From NCBI GenBank assembly GCA_003577165.1, contig QEUM01000011.1:1-64000 (forward strand): a stretch of DNA of 64,000 nucleotides, written 5' to 3'. Below, piece by piece: positions 51,096 through 59,520 of the stretch (its first letter is position 1; each line of letters starts with the position of its first letter). The notes under the pieces are model-generated. The model had not been told where the DNA came from and did not search any database. It worked only from the letters and a program-made list of their open reading frames with translations. Position numbers and translations under genes: made by a program. This stretch comes from Armatimonadota bacterium (GTDB lineage: Bacteria > Armatimonadota > Fimbriimonadia > Fimbriimonadales > ATM1).

Positions 51096-53474
51096 TTACT
51101 CGGCTGGGTGCCCGGGGTTCCGCTTGCGGCGCATTGCCGCAAATCCGCCGACAGTCATCATACCCGCGCCGATCCAAACGAGAATCGTCAGAGGCTTGTA
51201 GAACAGCTGCGTCGGGTACACAGGTTCCGACGGAAGCAGTGAAAATGAGGCTGTCTTCGTCGCGGCATCCAAACTGTCGAGCGCGATGACCATGTCGGAT
51301 GCGATCGCAGCGGAACGCTGACGAGTGCCGCGCTCTGTGATCTCGATCGCGGGCTCCGCCTCGATGAACTCGCCATCTGAAAAGGTCACCCTCACCCTCG
51401 CTCCGAACCTCGTGCCGACCGCGCCTGGCTCGCCCTGCTGAGTCGGTTCCAAGTATCGAATCAGCATCCCGTTCGATGCCTTCTCCTCGCCGGGCTTCAA
51501 CTGGATTCCCGTGTCGATTTCCAAAACGGGCTTGCCAATGACGTAATACAGGTCGTACAGAACGGTCCGGTAGATGTCCGGCCTCATCACCCAGTTGCCG
51601 TGCTTCTCGCTGAAATAGAGCACAGGTTCCAACCGCTTCGGAGGCCCTTCAGACGCCTGGAGCAGGAAGGGAAAACGATTGTCGTGCTGCGCGATTCGGT
51701 GAACGTCCTCCGCAGTCGGCGCATCGAGCAGCCTTGCCAGATACCGCCGCGACGATCCGATCACCAAACTCGCCTGCTTCACGCTCGTCACGAAATCTCG
51801 ATCCGTCTTCTCAAATGCCTTGGAGACTACGAGTCCCAATAGGAGTAGCGCAACGCCCGCATGCGTCACGTATGCACCGATCCCCCAGGCACCCGATCGC
51901 ACTCGCTCGAGAATGCGGATCAGATTCGCTGAAATTGAAAAGATCGTCACCCACGTCGAAGCAAACAGCACGAAGAGGAGCCACTTCGACATCCGCTGGA
52001 TCTCGACGTTGCCTTCGTTCCTCACCACAACGTCCGTCAGCCCGTTGCGCAAGAGGAAGAAGACGAGCAGGCTGAAAAGCAGCGCGGAGAGAAAGAAAGC
52101 GTTCGCCAACTGCTGGGTGCGCTTCGAGGAGGTCTTCGTCCAACCCAGGAATGGCGTCAATCCCATCAGGAACATCGCCGGGATGAAAGCGAATACTGCG
52201 ACACGGTTGTAAACATCCTCGCTCACCGCGGAGATGTTGCTGTCGCCTTCCACGACGCCGAGCATCGGAACCTTGAAACCGAAGAGGTGCGAGAAGAAGG
52301 GAAGCGACATTCCGATCGCCGCCATAATGCCGACCAAATAGAGCACCGACATCCCGATGGTCAATCCCTCTTGCCGGTGGCCGGCTTCCTTCGAGTTCAC
52401 ATCCGCGAGCGCCTTGCCTCGGGCCCAAATCACGCCCCAAACGACGCCCGTGAACGCAAGCGTTGCGACGACCAATCCGAGCAGCACGCCGTGCGCTCCT
52501 TGGTTCATCTCCGCAAAACTGTGCACGCTGACGTTCACCAACGCTCCGCTTCTCGTGAGATAGGTGCCGAACACGAACCAAAGGAACGGCAGAAGCGCAA
52601 GAACGAGCGCCGGCCGTCCCCAGCGGTTGCGATGCGCGCGAACGTAAAGCGCATGCACGAGCACAGCGCACGCGATGAAGGGAACCAGGCTTACGTTCTC
52701 AACCGGATCCCACGCCCAGAATCCCCCCCACCCAAGGGTCTCGTACGCCCACAGGCCTCCCATTACCAGGCCCACGCCGAGCATCGTCATCGAGAAGATA
52801 GCAAACGGCCGAAAACTCTGCACCCACGAGTCCCAATCCTTCGAAAAGGCAACGGAGGTCGCCCACGCGAATAGGCTCAACAGACTTCCGAATCCGATGA
52901 AGATCACCCAGGGGTGGATGACCATCCAGTAGTTCTCGAGCTGAGGGTTCAGACCGACGCCGTCGTTCAGCGCGAAGAGCCTCTGCTCTTCCGTGAGCTC
53001 GCTAAAGTCCAGGAGCTTGAACGGCGACTCATAGGCGGTGATCGCGAGCATCGCGGACAACGCGATCCCGGCGACCACAGAGAACCACCGACGATAGAGG
53101 CCCGTCTTCGGCGCGGCGAACATCGCGACGACCGCGCTCATCAGCGCCCATAGAAGAAAACTCCCTTCCTGCTTCGCCCACGCCGCGCTCAACCGGTACA
53201 TCGTCGGCATCCGGTTTTCGGTCGTCCCAGAAACGTAGTCGAATTGATACTGTTTCGTCAGCAGGAGGTAGATGAGGCAGCCCATCGTCGCAGCGACTGC
53301 CGCCGCCCCGAGAGTAAAGAGCCATCCGCCAAGGCGGCTCCGGCCCTCTTTCGCTCGAAACGCCCACACTGCCGCAGAACCGAGAAAGAGCGCGATCGCC
53401 GCGAAGACGAGGAACCGGCCGAGACTCCCCACGGCCATCCCCGCAGCCGATGGCTCCGTGATCAATTCGGGCAT
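51096..53474 (-). CDS. ccmF: CcmF-type cytochrome c haem lyase, copy 1
   Basis: A 792-residue polytopic protein (about 14 helices) of the CcmF/NrfE family, which attaches haem to apocytochromes. The WWD haem-handling motif is WGGFWAWDPVENVSLVPF. Conserved histidines are seen in MVIHPWVIFIGF and in SVHSFAEMNQGAHG, and the early AAWAKQEGSFLLW motif is present. A periplasmic C-terminal domain of about 180 residues follows the last-but-one helix. It lies six bases downstream of ccmE. A second ccmF precedes ccmE. Confidence 0.93.
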   Translation of the reverse strand: MPELITEPSAAGMAVGSLGRFLVFAAIALFLGSAAVWAFRAKEGRSRLGGWLFTLGAAAVAATMGCLIYLLLTKQYQFDYVSGTTENRMPTMYRLSAAWAKQEGSFLLWALMSAVVAMFAAPKTGLYRRWFSVVAGIALSAMLAITAYESPFKLLDFSELTEEQRLFALNDGVGLNPQLENYWMVIHPWVIFIGFGSLLSLFAWATSVAFSKDWDSWVQSFRPFAIFSMTMLGVGLVMGGLWAYETLGWGGFWAWDPVENVSLVPFIACAVLVHALYVRAHRNRWGRPALVLALLPFLWFVFGTYLTRSGALVNVSVHSFAEMNQGAHGVLLGLVVATLAFTGVVWGVIWARGKALADVNSKEAGHRQEGLTIGMSVLYLVGIMAAIGMSLPFFSHLFGFKVPMLGVVEGDSNISAVSEDVYNRVAVFAFIPAMFLMGLTPFLGWTKTSSKRTQQLANAFFLSALLFSLLVFFLLRNGLTDVVVRNEGNVEIQRMSKWLLFVLFASTWVTIFSISANLIRILERVRSGAWGIGAYVTHAGVALLLLGLVVSKAFEKTDRDFVTSVKQASLVIGSSRRYLARLLDAPTAEDVHRIAQHDNRFPFLLQASEGPPKRLEPVLYFSEKHGNWVMRPDIYRTVLYDLYYVIGKPVLEIDTGIQLKPGEEKASNGMLIRYLEPTQQGEPGAVGTRFGARVRVTFSDGEFIEAEPAIEITERGTRQRSAAIASDMVIALDSLDAATKTASFSLLPSEPVYPTQLFYKPLTILVWIGAGMMTVGGFAAMRRKRNPGHPAE
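52702..52733 (-). repeat. 32-bp identical segment shared by the two ccmF genes, copy 1
   Basis: Identical to 55402-55433. It encodes the centre of the WWD motif (G-G-F-W-A-W-D-P-V) in both genes, while flanking sequence differs. Confidence 0.85.
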
Positions 53475-53480
53475 CGCAGA

Positions 53481-53861
53481 CTAACCCTTGCTCGCCTCAG
53501 CGCTTTCGTACTTGCTCGGGCATTGCGTCTTGACGCCCGTCGCACGGAACTTGCCGTCCCGGTACGCGCCCTCGACCGAAGCCTTGGGGGCGCCGTCGAA
53601 ATTCGCAGGTTTCCCCGTCTCGCACACAACCGGCATCCGCTCTCCGAATTCATCCACCAGGACGAACTCGAAGCGGTTCGTCCTCAAATCGAGCCGCGCT
53701 GAGGCGTGGTCGATTTCGCCTGCCACGTGAACGACCTTGCCCGGCTGGGCTGCTGCCTCCGTCGCCGACACGTACGGCGTCGCGCTCGTCACGAAGGCAT
53801 ACACGCTCAGAGTGATGCCGACGACGATGACGGCTGCTGCGATAATGGGCCCGGGTTTCAC
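53481..53861 (-). CDS. ccmE: CcmE haem chaperone, cysteine-type (C-x3-Y)
   Basis: A 126-residue periplasmic haem chaperone with one N-terminal anchor helix (IIAAAVIVVGITLSVYAFV). The OB-fold (VVHVAGEIDHASARLD, FVLVDEFGERMPVVCE) is typical. The haem-binding site near the C-terminus is Cys114-Pro-Ser-Lys-Tyr118 instead of the usual H-x3-Y. This C-x3-Y form is known from archaea and some deltaproteobacteria (for example Desulfovibrio) and marks the variant System I pathway. It sits between two ccmF genes. No ccmA, B, C, D, G or H is visible in the window. Confidence 0.93.
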   Translation of the reverse strand: MKPGPIIAAAVIVVGITLSVYAFVTSATPYVSATEAAAQPGKVVHVAGEIDHASARLDLRTNRFEFVLVDEFGERMPVVCETGKPANFDGAPKASVEGAYRDGKFRATGVKTQCPSKYESAEASKG

Positions 53862-53876
53862 TTCGTAAAGACCATT

Positions 53877-56201
53877 TTAGTCCACCGGCCCGCTCTTCGG
53901 CTTCGCCGACACGAACGCCAAGCCGACTCCGACGGCCAGCAGGATGGCTCCGACCCAGACCAGCCGAGCCAGTGGCTTCTCATAAATCTCTACTACGACG
54001 TACGGCTCGATCGTGTTGACGGACACCACCGCAGCCCCGTCCGGCTTCACCCCGTCCAGCCGGACGTACATGTCCTCCCCCATCCTCTCGTCTTCGAACG
54101 AGGAGCCATCCGAGTTGTGCAACTTCGCCGGCGCCAGGTCGAAGGTCTGTCCATCGGCCGTGATCCGCAGCCGTACCGACTGCCGACCGGGATCGCCGTC
54201 CTGCAAGGCCCCTAAATGCTCAACTCGAATTTCGTTCCGCTCCACCGACTCGCCCGGTCGAACCTCAACCCCTCGAACGACTTCGTCGTCGGGGGCCGTC
54301 GCCGAAACGTACAAGTCCGAGAGCCCGCTGGTTCTGACGCTGGGCCGCGTCACGGGCATGATGTCCTCCTCCCGACCCAGCGGCAAGTGATAGTAGGCGA
54401 CCGGCCGGAATGGCATCGCCGTTCCCTTCGGCGTATGAATCTCGAGGGCAAGAGTGGACTCCGGCGTCATCAGTTGCTCGATGGACGGGTTCTCGGTCAT
54501 CCGCACCGTGTACTCGCCCGACGCGAGTTCGATCCGCGCCTCCTTCGTCGGATAGAGCAGACCTCGGTCCTTCGTCTCGAATCCACGCGAAATCAACAGC
54601 CCCAATAGCAGAATCGAAATTCCCATGTGCGCCACGTAGCCGCCTAACCGTCCCGCGTGCGCCTTCATCCGAGACCAACCCCGCACGGCGTTCGCAGACA
54701 TCGCAAACAGAGTCGCTGCGGAAAGCAAGACCACCAACGTCGCGCTGAGCGGCTGCACGGAAAACGTGGCCTGCAGCAGCCCCCCCCAAGCGAGGTAAGC
54801 GAGAATGCAGCCCGTGATGACGAGGGCGAACAGCACACATCCGATGAGCGTGCCTGAAAACCTCCGCCCCCCCTCCTTCCAACCGGCCTGAGGCGCGATC
54901 GCCATCAGCGCGAGCGCCACAAGCAGTGGCAGCCAAGTCATTTGGTTGTAGTCGCCTTCGTCCACGGTCTTTCGAACCCCGGAGAACTGGGCAGCCAAGA
55001 ACGGAACCGACATTCCGATCGCGGCGAGGCCGGAAAGAACCCAAAGGGAAACAACGCCGATCGTGATGGCGCGTGACCTCGGCTCCGATGCTGGACTTCG
55101 TTCGCCTTCCGGTTGTCGCAATCCACCGACGACCCCGTGCACCACAACGACCGCAACGATTGCGCCGAGGACGAAACCCAGCAGGAGTTTGTGAGCGACC
55201 GGGTCCATCTGAGCGAAACTGTGTACGGACACATTCGCCAGCTGTCCGCTTCGGGTCAGAAACGTCCCGTATGCAAACAGAGCGAACGGAAGACCAGCCA
55301 ACACGAGATTCGCGCGCTTCCAGTGGCCGCGCCAGTGCTGCAGATAAAGCCCGTGCACCAGAGCGCCCACCGCTAAGAACGGAACGAGGCTCGTGTTCTC
55401 CACCGGATCCCACGCCCAGAATCCCCCCCACCCGAGGGTCTCATACGCCCACAATCCGCCCATGACGAGGCCGACGCCCAGGAAGAAAAGCGCGACGAAC
55501 GCGACCTTTCGCCCCTGCGCGAGCCACGTGGAGAAGTCACCGGCGATCGCCGACGCTCCGGACAGCGCGAAAAGGGGCAGCAGCGAACCGAATCCGAGGA
55601 AGATCACCCACGGGTGGATGATCATCCAGTAGTTCACGAGCACTGGATTGAGACCCGCGCCATCCGGCGGAACGACCATCGTTTGACCTGGGGCGAGATA
55701 CGGCTTTAGGTCGTCCGCGATCTCGATGAGACGAAATGGAGACTCGTAAGCGAGGATCGCCGCACAAGCCGCAAGCGGAATCGCTGCAATCGCGATGTAT
55801 CGCGGCAGCAGGGAGGCGTTTCGGGGCATGAACAGAAGGCACATCAGCGCGCTCGAGGCGAGCCAGAGCGTAAAGCTCCCTTCCTGCGCAGCCCACGCGG
55901 CCCCAATCCGGTACGGAAGGCTGAGCGAGTTGTCCGTGTTCTGGAACACGTAGGCAAACTCATACTGCCTGCCAACAAGGAGCGAAATCAGCGCTGCGAG
56001 AGCGGCGATGGCGAACAGCGACCCAACCTTAAAAAGAGCCTTCGCGACCGCGCTTCCCCGCGTGCGGCTTCCGATCACGAAAATGAACGACAGAATCCAA
56101 GCCAGGACGGACCCGATCACGAGGGCCGTCCCGGCCCAGCCCACCGCAAGCCAACCGGAACTCGGCTCTACGAGCAGACTTTCGATCGATGGGGATTCCA
56201 T
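53877..56201 (-). CDS. ccmF: CcmF-type cytochrome c haem lyase, copy 2
   Basis: A 774-residue paralog of the gene at 51096 with the same architecture: AAWAAQEGSFTLW, IIHPWVIFLGFGSLLPLFA, the WWD motif WGGFWAWDPVENTSLVPF, and SVHSFAQMDPVAHK. The two proteins differ widely outside the membrane helices, particularly in the C-terminal periplasmic domain. They may serve different apocytochromes or haem types, or act as a heterodimer. It starts 65 bases after the DUF2231 cytochrome gene. Confidence 0.93.
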   Translation of the reverse strand: MESPSIESLLVEPSSGWLAVGWAGTALVIGSVLAWILSFIFVIGSRTRGSAVAKALFKVGSLFAIAALAALISLLVGRQYEFAYVFQNTDNSLSLPYRIGAAWAAQEGSFTLWLASSALMCLLFMPRNASLLPRYIAIAAIPLAACAAILAYESPFRLIEIADDLKPYLAPGQTMVVPPDGAGLNPVLVNYWMIIHPWVIFLGFGSLLPLFALSGASAIAGDFSTWLAQGRKVAFVALFFLGVGLVMGGLWAYETLGWGGFWAWDPVENTSLVPFLAVGALVHGLYLQHWRGHWKRANLVLAGLPFALFAYGTFLTRSGQLANVSVHSFAQMDPVAHKLLLGFVLGAIVAVVVVHGVVGGLRQPEGERSPASEPRSRAITIGVVSLWVLSGLAAIGMSVPFLAAQFSGVRKTVDEGDYNQMTWLPLLVALALMAIAPQAGWKEGGRRFSGTLIGCVLFALVITGCILAYLAWGGLLQATFSVQPLSATLVVLLSAATLFAMSANAVRGWSRMKAHAGRLGGYVAHMGISILLLGLLISRGFETKDRGLLYPTKEARIELASGEYTVRMTENPSIEQLMTPESTLALEIHTPKGTAMPFRPVAYYHLPLGREEDIMPVTRPSVRTSGLSDLYVSATAPDDEVVRGVEVRPGESVERNEIRVEHLGALQDGDPGRQSVRLRITADGQTFDLAPAKLHNSDGSSFEDERMGEDMYVRLDGVKPDGAAVVSVNTIEPYVVVEIYEKPLARLVWVGAILLAVGVGLAFVSAKPKSGPVD
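55402..55433 (-). repeat. 32-bp identical segment shared by the two ccmF genes, copy 2
   Basis: Identical to 52702-52733 and positioned at the same place in the WWD-encoding region of the second ccmF gene. Confidence 0.85.
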
Positions 56202-56266: not shown

Positions 56267-57268
56267 CTACTCTCCGTACACGAACACGCCGCCCAAGTGA
56301 CCGGCCCAGGAAATCAGAATGAGTCCGATGACCGCCAACAGCCAGTAGACCAATCGCTGAAACACGTGCATGTCTTCGTGGCGGTGTACGCGCATCGAGA
56401 CCATCATCCACATCACGAACGCGCCGGTGACCGCAAACAGGAAGTGCTCCGTAATCACGCCCTTGAACGGGATTTTCATGTAGATCATTGCGAGATAGCC
56501 TGTGACGACGCCGATGACTGCGCTCAAGGCCGCCAATACCAGGTTGTACCAACCGGCCCACAGAAGTTCATGTTTCTTCGTCAGCAGGCCCCACAGATCG
56601 AGAAGCAGGCCGGCGATGAACAGAGCGATAGGAAAGTGCACTACCGCGGGATGAAATCCGTTTTTGGGAATTAGCCTCTTTGGAGGTTCAGGCTCCTCGA
56701 CCGGCTCTTCTTCGGCTTGCTCGGTCGGTTCCGACGTCGGCGGCGCCGCCTCCTCTGCTCCGGGCTGGGGTTGACCTTCGCCCCCCCCTTCCGTAGTCGC
56801 GGGCTCCGTCTTGCCTGTGGGCGGTTTTGTCGTTCCTGTCGCGGGAGGTTTCGCGCCTGAGCCACTTCCCGATGCGGGAGGCTTCGCGTCTCCGGCTGCA
56901 GGGGGGGGCTTCGGCGTGCCGGCGGGTTTGTCTTTGCTGTCGCCGGGGGCCTTGTCCGCTCTTAGTTCTTCGGCGTTCGTGAACCCGTCTCCGTCGGCGT
57001 CCATCGCCTCGATCTTCTTCATGATCGCCGCCGTAAGGCTAGTCTCATCGGCTTCCGCCATCGCCACGGCCAACTGCTTTCCGTACGAGTTCATGCCGTA
57101 ATCCGAATCGGATACGTGACAGATTCCGCAGGATCGTTCCGCGAGCGAACCGCTATCGGAAATCTTGTAGGTCAGGAGAATCTTCTCAAGGAAGTCGCTC
57201 TTCGCAGTCGCCGATGTAACGGAGAAGAGGAAGGCTATCGGAACGAGCACGGCTGAGGCTCTACGCAT
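56267..57268 (-). CDS. Haem c / EF-hand / DUF2231 membrane protein
   Basis: A 333-residue multidomain protein: signal peptide (1-22), one haem c motif (Cys47-Gly-Ile-Cys-His51), an EF-hand-like loop (DADGDGFTNAEE, about 90-101), a Pro/Gly/Thr-rich linker (about 112-195), and a C-terminal DUF2231-type membrane domain (about 205-333, starting FHPAVVHFPIALF, four helices). DUF2231 domains often carry histidines that may bind haem b. The haem and EF-hand part is paralogous to the small cytochrome at 58576. It could pass electrons between the membrane and the periplasm. Confidence 0.85.
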   Translation of the reverse strand: MRRASAVLVPIAFLFSVTSATAKSDFLEKILLTYKISDSGSLAERSCGICHVSDSDYGMNSYGKQLAVAMAEADETSLTAAIMKKIEAMDADGDGFTNAEELRADKAPGDSKDKPAGTPKPPPAAGDAKPPASGSGSGAKPPATGTTKPPTGKTEPATTEGGGEGQPQPGAEEAAPPTSEPTEQAEEEPVEEPEPPKRLIPKNGFHPAVVHFPIALFIAGLLLDLWGLLTKKHELLWAGWYNLVLAALSAVIGVVTGYLAMIYMKIPFKGVITEHFLFAVTGAFVMWMMVSMRVHRHEDMHVFQRLVYWLLAVIGLILISWAGHLGGVFVYGE

Positions 57269-57338
57269 TTTCTGTTACTCCATACGAGGCTGTTAGGGTG
57301 GCGGAGGGCAACGAGTGCCCTCCGCCGATCAGGCGATC

Positions 57339-58541
57339 TCAGAACATCCAGTTTAGTTCGAAAGTGAACTTGTTGGTCGTTGCTCCGCCTGAGACCTTCG
57401 ACCATGTCTGCTCGAAGACCATTCTGCCAACTTTGTTGAGTCTGTACGACAGTCCGATCGCGCCGCCGGTGATCTCCGGCGAGAGGTCGGGATCGAAGAA
57501 GTCGTACCGGCCATAGAAGGCAGTCGTGGGACTGGCAAGGAACGCAGCCTCAAGGTAATAGCCGTGCGGATTGCGAGAACCGCCGGCCGCGAGGTCATTC
57601 TGACCAGAGAACCACCCGCCGCTGACTTCGAAGTTGTCACGAACGAGGCTCGCCATCACTCCGAATCGCGTGAACTCATCGCCAAAGGCAGGGGGTCCCG
57701 TTACGGGAAACTCGCCTGAGTAGCCGTAAACCCCAAACGAACTGCCGAACTCATCGAACAGGAACTCGAGCGAGCCCCAGATGTCCTTCATCTCGTTGTT
57801 CTCAGCGATGTTAGGCCGGGCGTTGCCGCCGCCGCCATTCGTGATGCCGAACTCGCCGAACAAGTTTTCCTTTGTCTTGAACCCGAACGCAACCCCGTAG
57901 AACCTGTCGCGAGGAGTGAACAAGTTGCCTCCACCGACATTGTCGTTGAGAATGCGGGGCCGACTGATGGAAACCCGTCCGCCCGTGCTCGCAGTGTGAA
58001 TGATGCGCGGCGTATAGGAACCCGCTCGCGCAAACCAGTAGTTCTCGCCCTGCGGGTTGCTGTTGTACTGCAAGTACGCTTCTGCTAACTTGCTTCTGAC
58101 TGCCGTATCGAGCTGGCCGCCGCCACTGGTGGCTGCTTTGCCCCGCTCGTGCAGGTAGATCTCGAAGAAGTAACTGAAGTTCTCGTAGAGTGGGCCGCCC
58201 GAATAGATGGACAGCGCTTCGACGTCGAACCTGGTCTCAGGCGTTTCGTCAGGGCTCTGCTCAAACCGGAACTTGCTGGCGAACGACATGTACTGCCACC
58301 AGCTCAGGTCTTCTGCATCGTCGATGTTAGTTGCGTCGGGCGTTCGCTGCCCCCGCCATAGGAAGTCTCGACCGAATTTCGTCAATCGGTTCGTGGAGCC
58401 AAAGTGGCATGAACTGCAGTCCATGTCGTATTTTCGTGACCATGCTGGGATTGCTTCCGACTTCGTCGGTAGCCACAGGCACGTCACGACGAGCGCAACG
58501 CAGCAAATCGCGTGCGCCATGTGAGTGATCCTAATCCTCAT
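57339..58541 (-). CDS. Cyc2-like cytochrome-porin fusion (outer membrane)
   Basis: A 400-residue exported protein. The signal peptide ends near SEA30. A monohaem cytochrome segment follows directly: AIPAWSRKYDMDCSSCHFG with C42-x2-C45-H46, then TNRLTKFGRDFLWRGQRT. Residues about 85-400 have alternating polar/hydrophobic strands typical of a 16-strand porin barrel, ending in the outer-membrane signature FTFELNWMF with terminal Phe. This arrangement (short N-terminal haem c and barrel in one chain) is that of Cyc2-type iron-oxidising or electron-conduit proteins. It lies between two monohaem cytochrome genes. Confidence 0.85.
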   Translation of the reverse strand: MRIRITHMAHAICCVALVVTCLWLPTKSEAIPAWSRKYDMDCSSCHFGSTNRLTKFGRDFLWRGQRTPDATNIDDAEDLSWWQYMSFASKFRFEQSPDETPETRFDVEALSIYSGGPLYENFSYFFEIYLHERGKAATSGGGQLDTAVRSKLAEAYLQYNSNPQGENYWFARAGSYTPRIIHTASTGGRVSISRPRILNDNVGGGNLFTPRDRFYGVAFGFKTKENLFGEFGITNGGGGNARPNIAENNEMKDIWGSLEFLFDEFGSSFGVYGYSGEFPVTGPPAFGDEFTRFGVMASLVRDNFEVSGGWFSGQNDLAAGGSRNPHGYYLEAAFLASPTTAFYGRYDFFDPDLSPEITGGAIGLSYRLNKVGRMVFEQTWSKVSGGATTNKFTFELNWMF

Positions 58542-58575: not shown

Positions 58576-58920
58576 TCACCTCTCGGTCGTAGGGACGCTC
58601 TTCGCGTCACCCGGCAATTTGTCGGCGCGGATCTCCGCGATGTTGCTCGCTCCGTCCTTGTCGGAATCCTTTGCCTCGACTTTCTTCAACACTTCAGCAG
58701 TCAGCGCCTTCGATCCGGCAAGCGCATGCTTGAGGTCCTGACCGTAGGAATTGAGTTTTGCGGTCTGGCCAACGTGGCAGACTGCGCACTTTGCTTTGCC
58801 CAGCGTTGATGTCTTGGCAACGTTGTAAGTGGTAGCGAACACCTTCACGAAACCGGTGAGTGCCATCGCACTCGACGCAATGCTAACAGCCAAAAGCGCA
58901 AGAAGCGCTTTCCGTTTCAT
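58576..58920 (-). CDS. Small periplasmic monohaem cytochrome c with EF-hand-like loop
   Basis: A 114-residue exported protein (signal about 1-20) with haem motif C45-A-V-C48-H49, LNSYGQDLKHAL, and an EF-hand-like loop DSDKDGASNIAE (about 85-96) followed by IRADKLPGD. The order C-x2-C-H, N-S-Y-G, K-K-x-E-A, D-x-D-x-D-G, R-A-D-K-x-P-G-D is shared with the DUF2231 cytochrome at 56267, so one derives from the other. An AGGAGG lies close to the ATG, which also overlaps the Rrf2 stop (ATGA). It is a candidate soluble carrier between the porin cytochrome and the membrane. Confidence 0.88.
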   Translation of the reverse strand: MKRKALLALLAVSIASSAMALTGFVKVFATTYNVAKTSTLGKAKCAVCHVGQTAKLNSYGQDLKHALAGSKALTAEVLKKVEAKDSDKDGASNIAEIRADKLPGDAKSVPTTER

Positions 58921-59450
58921 TTTTTGCCTCCTAATGGCTTTGGGTTGGACGCGGTCGGGGCGTTTGTGCCTCCGCGTCGACTCGGTTTCTTCCCTATTCC
59001 CACCTTTGCAGTTCGGCTAGATCGCCCGGCTTCAACTTGACGTCGAACGATGTCGTCCAAGGTGATGGTGGATAAGGACTCTCTCGTATGATCTCGCAGC
59101 GCCAGCCACATGTCGTGCAAGGCGCACGGCGAATTCGAATTGCACATCCGCTCCCGATCCATGAAGCACCAGGGCTTCTCGAACGGTCCGTCGTACGACT
59201 CGACAATCTCGAGCAGGCTAATTTCGTTTGCAGGGCGAGCGATCGTATAACCGCGCTCGGCGCCGCGACGTACCCTAAGGAGCGCGGCCTTCGCTAAGCG
59301 AGTGAGGATGTTTCCCGCAAACTGCGGAGGGATGTTCGCGGATCGAGCGATCTCGTCCGCCTGGACGACCCTCCCCTCCCTCTCGGCAATCCACTGCATC
59401 GCGGAGATCGCGTATTCGCATCCTCTCGTGATCTGCAGCAGGTTTGCCAT
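58917..59450 (-). CDS. Rrf2-family transcriptional regulator with Fe-S-type cysteine triad
   Basis: A 177-residue winged-HTH regulator. Family motifs are CEYAISAMQWIAE, IARSANIPPQFAGNILTRLAKAALL and RRGAERGYTIARPANEISLLEIVE. Three cysteines, C95, C103 and C109, have spacing C-x7-C-x5-C, as I recall for the iron-responsive RirA; IscR and NsrR differ slightly. An Fe-S cluster sensing iron, NO or redox is therefore likely. The Lys/Arg-rich tail (about 145-177) is longer than usual. Start 59450 is chosen over TTG 59465. It is the first gene of the cytochrome operon and a perfect dyad lies 12 bases upstream. Confidence 0.88.
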   Translation of the reverse strand: MANLLQITRGCEYAISAMQWIAEREGRVVQADEIARSANIPPQFAGNILTRLAKAALLRVRRGAERGYTIARPANEISLLEIVESYDGPFEKPWCFMDRERMCNSNSPCALHDMWLALRDHTRESLSTITLDDIVRRQVEAGRSSRTAKVGIGKKPSRRGGTNAPTASNPKPLGGKK

Positions 59451-59461
59451 CTTCAACTGCC

Positions 59462-59486
59462 TCAATCGAGTGATTGGCTCGATTGA
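59462..59486 (-). promoter_or_regulatory. Perfect 9-bp inverted repeat: probable Rrf2 operator
   Basis: TCAATCGAG (59462-59470) and CTCGATTGA (59478-59486) are exact inverted repeats with a 7-base spacer. The dyad lies just downstream of the predicted -10 box and 12 bases before the regulator's ATG. This is a typical place for autorepression of the Rrf2 operon. Confidence 0.65.
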
Positions 59487-59492
59487 CTTGAT

Positions 59493-59520
59493 TCTGTAGC
59501 CGCAAACCTGCCCATGTCAA
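59493..59520 (-). promoter_or_regulatory. Promoter of the Rrf2-cytochrome operon
   Basis: On the minus strand TTGACA (59520-59515) and TACAGA (59498-59493) are separated by 16 bases. The -35 is perfect and the -10 weak, as expected for a regulated promoter. The predicted start site falls at the edge of the dyad at 59462-59486. Confidence 0.5.

Follow-up and report, generated by a model that had tools for sequence, protein, structure and literature searches.

A divergent Cyc2-like porin-cytochrome in Armatimonadota, encoded in an operon with haem-maturation genes

Cyc2 is a marker gene by which iron oxidation is recognised in genomes. The sequence AXPXFAR[Q/K][T/Y] upstream of CXXCH has been named as unique to Cyc2, together with PXL four residues after CXXCH, and the porins OprO and OprP are those on which Cyc2 of PV-1 was modelled (PMC8406198). 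Cluster 1 Cyc2 is reported for every Gallionellaceae iron oxidiser that has cyc2 (PMC10734462). For Armatimonadota, Kato and colleagues (2022) described a FeGenie-called Cluster 3 Cyc2 in the class HRBIN16, and MtoA was reported in UBA5829 (PMC9671151). The Cyc2 kind is already known and published for this phylum, and the protein described here is a divergent variant of it. On balance we think it probable, if far from certain, that this protein is a divergent Cyc2-like outer-membrane porin-cytochrome that acts as an inward conduit for Fe2+ or another small reductant and is encoded in an Rrf2-controlled operon.

The protein is encoded in the window, by which we mean the whole stretch of 64,000 nucleotides that was analysed. 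Its features are as follows:

57339..58541, minus strand: Cyc2-like porin-cytochrome, 400 aa (open reading frame, orthologues, AlphaFold2 16-strand barrel)
58452..58541, minus strand: signal peptide, residues 1-30, predicted cleavage after KSEA (sequence reading and model helix 2-23)
58344..58454, minus strand: haem-c domain, residues 30-66, AIPAWSRKYDMDCSSCHFGSTNRLTKFGRDFLWRGQR (clade conservation and alignability with Gallionellaceae Cyc2-type proteins)
58404..58418, minus strand: haem attachment motif CSSCH, residues 42-46 (invariant in all aligned relatives)
57342..58289, minus strand: predicted 16-strand beta-barrel, residues 85-400 (AlphaFold2; OprB/OprO/OprP with Z about 22-23; Foldseek OmpU/Omp32/OmpF)

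The preliminary description had placed the reading frame exactly and left its strand unstated; it lies on the minus strand. The single C-x2-C-H and the terminal aromatic that it had reported are both present. CSSCH (C42-H46) is the only CXXCH and comes straight after a signal peptide ending in KSEA, which was called by eye from the sequence and from the hydrophobic helix 2-23 of the AlphaFold2 model. The haem region, directly after this signal-peptide-like hydrophobic start, reads AIPAWSRKYDMDCSSCHFGSTNRLTKFG. The C-terminus is FTFELNWMF, and a terminal aromatic is typical of outer-membrane barrels. At 400 aa the protein exceeds the minimum length for Cyc2 (at least 365 aa), and it shares with Cyc2 the secretory start and the one N-terminal CXXCH.

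Searches against Pfam and NCBIfam gave no significant match to the porin-cytochrome, and likewise no significant model for its Gallionellaceae Cyc2-type relatives. Sequence searches of the PDB with the protein, the clade profile and the Gallionellaceae profile returned chance matches only. No match was obtained by tblastn against plasmids, where a Cyc2-like paralogue used as query found one distant Methylocystis protein, and none was found in a scan of viral contigs.

Four genomes of the same order, G009, G025 (complete chromosome CP054189.1, the Armatimonadota MAG Chthonomonadaceae bacterium H1_ARM1), G027 and G062, carry full-length orthologues that are 57-62% identical to the window protein and share its haem site. 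The identity of G025 places the window in Armatimonadota. Elsewhere in the phylum, orthologues at about 43-47% identity are found in HRbin16, G183, G226 and G228. Because of this distribution the reading frame is not a chance one. The CXXCH is invariant in every relative aligned, over all sampled divergence. Matches to a Cyc2-like profile were obtained in 58 of the 291 Armatimonadota genomes, representing 46 of 156 genera; in many cases what is matched is the haem region of another clade. An MtrB-like porin of about 540 aa, indicating an MtrCAB-like conduit, is widespread in the order (31 of 101 relatives); no match to it was found when it was sought in the window genome. With these counts and the 2022 report (PMC9671151), the earlier expectation that such a function would be unusual for Armatimonadota falls away. 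In G062 (L101:133-4391), a 544-aa MtrB-like porin is flanked on one side by a nonahaem cytochrome and on the other by a protein that has seven CXXCH motifs, an MtrC/F domain and a lipoprotein-like start. The window genome itself carries a second Cyc2-like porin-cytochrome, L017, on contig 22 (L022:8494-9615), which has no redox neighbours.

A barrel had been claimed from the sequence, with structure prediction as the way to count its strands. AlphaFold2 predicted, at moderate confidence (mean pLDDT 64.7, pTM 0.66), 16 strands between residues 85 and 399, in agreement with that claim. The alignment supplied consisted of the window protein and its relatives' sequences, with distant relatives trimmed to the haem region; including these distant relatives at full length gave a pLDDT of 47, which rose to 64.7 after trimming. 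The top Foldseek matches were 16-strand porins (an OmpC model, OmpM1, OmpU, Omp32 and OmpF; E about 1e-10 to 1e-8), and a second fold comparison gave OprB (Z 22.9), OprO (Z 22.8) and OprP (Z 22.6), an order that means little because many other porins score Z 21-22. In the haem region, the model has two short helices (33-38 and 55-62), with a confidence of about 60-74 for the haem domain. By analogy with the published Cyc2 model, from which we take its position, the haem plug would sit at the periplasmic mouth of the barrel (PMC8406198).

Kinship to Cyc2 is supported by sequence comparison of the N-terminal part. In a profile-profile comparison, the clade profile matched Gallionellaceae Cyc2-type proteins over residues 1-131 (98.6%, E 1.4e-15), and no similarity was detectable in the remainder of the barrel. 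A contig scan with the clade alignment retrieved Armatimonadota orthologues, followed by proteins of Nitrosomonadales, Sideroxydans and one other gammaproteobacterium; these latter proteins carry the canonical motif, e.g., AVPVFARQTGMACSSCHFQHFPLLN. When the five source genomes were searched with the clade profile, the same proteins were matched (E 1e-8 to 1e-13). The protein matched in Sideroxydans STB_72 is the sole strict Cyc2-motif match of that genome, and since Cluster 1 is the type reported for Gallionellaceae, it probably is a real Cyc2. The Gallionellaceae reference proteins, which come from MAGs, are probably Cluster 1 Cyc2 as well.

Two signature motifs are altered in the window protein. 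Where Cyc2 has AXPXFAR[Q/K][T/Y], it reads AIPAWSRKY, with F replaced by W and A by S, and in place of PXL it has NRL. The close orthologues deviate too, with [WY][SAT]R where Cyc2 has FAR, and the proline of PXL is absent throughout the clade alignment. The strict Cyc2 motif, used as a DNA pattern, had no match over the window's own genome. In a tree of Cyc2-like proteins of the phylum and the Gallionellaceae proteins, the window protein belongs to a clade that comprises 11 Armatimonadota rows (98/98), eight of which form an inner clade (100/100). The Gallionellaceae proteins stand outside it, as do four or five other Cyc2-like groups of the phylum. Considering the two altered motifs and the separate clade, we call the protein Cyc2-like rather than Cyc2. 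Of the proposed Cyc2-like fusion, the monohaem-plus-barrel architecture and the kinship stand, and strict membership does not. That the protein works like Cyc2 is our best guess.

It is possible, though we rate it as clearly less probable than the divergent conduit, that the protein is a true Cyc2 iron oxidase of the Cluster 3 type, its motif changes reflecting ordinary drift of a loose cluster. The FeGenie-called Cluster 3 Cyc2 of the class HRBIN16 (PMC9671151) would agree with this, as would the place of the HRbin16 orthologue, which may or may not be the published HRBIN16 protein, in the clade of the window protein. Against it, strict screening requires PXFAR[Q/K][T/Y] (PMC8406198), a sequence that the window protein lacks.

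The divergent porin-cytochrome is encoded by the third of seven genes on the same strand. The intergenic spacing is -4, 34, 70, 65, 15 and 6 nt, and the genes are probably co-transcribed. Besides the porin-cytochrome gene, the operon contains:

58917..59450, minus strand: Rrf2-family regulator, ATG start, alternative TTG at 59465 (PF02082, E 2.1e-30)
58576..58920, minus strand: small monohaem cytochrome, 114 aa, CAVCH plus EF-hand-like DSDKDGASNIAE (open reading frame; weak NF041762 match)
57300..57326, minus strand: 11-bp hairpin without T run in the gap between the porin-cytochrome and haem-DUF2231 genes (fold z-score -4.2)
56267..57268, minus strand: monohaem (CGICH) domain fused to a DUF2231 four-helix membrane domain, 333 aa (PF09990, E 1.1e-14)
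53877..56201, minus strand: CcmF-type haem lyase (PF01578, PF16327)
53481..53861, minus strand: CcmE haem chaperone (PF03100)
51096..53474, minus strand: second CcmF-type haem lyase (PF01578, PF16327)

The operon thus encodes three single-haem cytochromes and three haem-maturation proteins. The membrane histidines of the DUF2231 domain are conserved across relatives and would fit haem b, and the hairpin is perhaps an mRNA stabiliser. The small cytochrome belongs to a family of about 110 aa with an EF-hand-like loop, found in 116 of the 291 Armatimonadota genomes either free-standing or fused to DUF2231, and often as two or more in tandem; the window members are at 58576-58920 and 56921-57232. 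No Pfam model covers this family, and its match in NCBIfam is weak.

The Rrf2 regulator has the cysteines C95-x7-C103-x5-C109, spaced like those of Fe-S sensors in the Rrf2 family. Two features lie just upstream of its gene:

59462..59486, no strand assigned: perfect 25-bp palindrome TCAATCGAG-N7-CTCGATTGA, candidate operator (just upstream of the Rrf2 ATG)
59491..59520, minus strand: promoter-like TTGACA-18-CAGAAT, upstream of the palindrome (consensus match only)

The palindrome is the sole perfect copy in the genome, the next best having two mismatches. The promoter-like match shows no excess over shuffles, and overlapping perfect inverted repeats of about this size number 13 in the window; we therefore treat the palindrome as no more than a candidate operator. 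The Rrf2 protein, encoded at the head of the operon, probably controls it via this palindrome.

The surroundings of the window operon recur in G004, a genome of the same family: ATP-synthase genes lie to one side, together with a gene for a relative of a 209-aa protein, and pyrE lies to the other. The slot between them (L095:8417-14549) holds genes for a tetrahaem cytochrome, an Fe-S protein, NrfD, haem-DUF2231, CcmE and CcmF, and no porin-cytochrome. The Rrf2, monohaem and porin-cytochrome genes therefore occupy the slot of a quinone-type module in the sister genus; the window genome's own tetrahaem/Fe-S/NrfD set is on another contig. The orthologues in G025, G027, G062, HRbin16, G183 and G228, for which both flanks are readable, have no cytochrome neighbours; those in G009 and G226 lie near contig ends, with one flank unread. 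A conserved operon was discarded as general evidence because of these six orthologues. It follows that the operon is not conserved as a functional unit; as far as sampled, it is particular to the window lineage, and a function read from it is therefore not transferable to the whole clade. In the literature searched, which excludes most subscription journals, no paper was found on a haem-DUF2231 partner for Cyc2. The gene setting of the porin-cytochrome is new and unreported.

Elsewhere in the window genome, COX1 adjoins a complete-looking alternative complex III operon. A RuBisCO large subunit was sought in this genome and not found, so there is no sign of classical lithoautotrophy by the RuBisCO route. 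On contig 8 (L129:6270-10604), a molybdopterin oxidoreductase gene is found beside that of a fused Fe-S/NrfD protein, polysulfide-reductase-like.

From these features we infer how the conduit might operate. A small dissolved reductant, most plausibly Fe2+, would enter the 16-strand barrel and, at its periplasmic mouth, meet the single haem c that the N-terminal domain carries. The 114-aa monohaem cytochrome encoded alongside would take up the electron and hand it on, via the haem-c/DUF2231 protein of the membrane or via other carriers in the periplasm, to an aa3-type oxidase, while the CcmF and CcmE proteins of the operon would load haem. The organism may use these inward electrons beside organic carbon. 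Movement of electrons across the outer membrane by the porin-cytochrome, as the preliminary description had suggested, is the best inference, and inward flow the most economical reading. Set against this explanation are the two altered Cyc2 motifs, the orthologues without cytochrome neighbours, the failure to find a RuBisCO large subunit and the confidence of about 60-74 in the haem domain.

Electrons might instead travel outward: quinol would feed them in via the haem-c/DUF2231 protein, and the porin-cytochrome would pass them from the periplasm to Fe(III), humics or soluble shuttles outside the cell. Tetrahaem/Fe-S/NrfD sets usually exchange electrons with the quinone pool, and in both G004 and G025 the haem-DUF2231 gene adjoins tetrahaem, Fe-S and NrfD genes; MtrCAB-like conduits are, moreover, common in relatives. 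We nevertheless regard outward transfer as improbable: solid oxides are out of reach for a monohaem porin, the genome has an oxidase as electron sink, and the characterised Cyc2 proteins oxidise Fe2+ (PMC8406198). We consider it equally unlikely that the protein is a substrate porin and its haem domain a plug, structural or redox-gated, rather than part of an energy-yielding electron path. The closest folds are indeed substrate porins such as OprB, OprO and OprP, the orthologues lack redox partners where flanks were read, and the clade has lost the PXL proline; yet the CXXCH is kept over all sampled divergence, and in the window a cytochrome gene stands on either side of the porin-cytochrome gene, accompanied by haem-maturation genes.

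A bolder version of the inward conduit can be drawn, which we consider doubtful. The operon would then be a compact, self-contained membrane-to-membrane wire that supports lithoheterotrophic Fe(II) oxidation in Armatimonadota, situated in the tetrahaem/Fe-S/NrfD slot of the sister lineage. The haem-c/DUF2231 protein would be the inner-membrane station, the small monohaem cytochrome the periplasmic shuttle and the porin-cytochrome the outer-membrane port, and the operon's own haem-loading genes and an Fe-S Rrf2 switch would complete it. Since the operon names likely partners (the monohaem cytochrome, haem-c/DUF2231 and Rrf2), a route from the outer to the inner membrane becomes testable. A clade that keeps the architecture without the two signature motifs is also a direct test of what the Cyc2 marker means.

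Compared with other known systems, the window protein resembles MtrCAB, MtoAB and PioAB in combining an outer-membrane barrel with haem c. In these systems the cytochrome is multihaem and a protein of its own, inserted in a barrel of 26 strands (PMC8406198), whereas here a single CXXCH is fused to a barrel of 16 predicted strands. The FeGenie-called Cluster 3 Cyc2 of HRBIN16 (PMC9671151) is from the same phylum, and the orthologue in the HRbin16 genome, 46-47% identical to the window protein, may or may not be the published one; this orthologue stands alone, in contrast to the window gene in its operon. The paralogue L017 also combines an N-terminal monohaem motif with a predicted barrel-length chain, but it reads ATPQFSREF-KMP-CITCH-SHV-PKL, with PXL kept, and belongs to a distinct clade. 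Other Armatimonadota Cyc2-like paralogues likewise have a monohaem N-terminus and a barrel-length chain and fall in distinct clades.

The closest described system is Cyc2 itself. In Mariprofundus ferrooxydans PV-1, Acidithiobacillus ferrooxidans and Gallionellaceae Cluster 1, a signal peptide, a single-CXXCH domain and a 16-strand porin are likewise joined in one chain. Cyc2 and the window protein have the identical spacing A-x-P-x4-[QK][TY]-x3-CXXCH, and profiles indicate that their N-terminal parts are homologous. The window protein differs from Cyc2 by WSR for FAR, NRL for PXL, its separate clade and a barrel without detectable sequence similarity, and, unlike Cyc2, it is encoded in an operon with haem-DUF2231 and Ccm genes.
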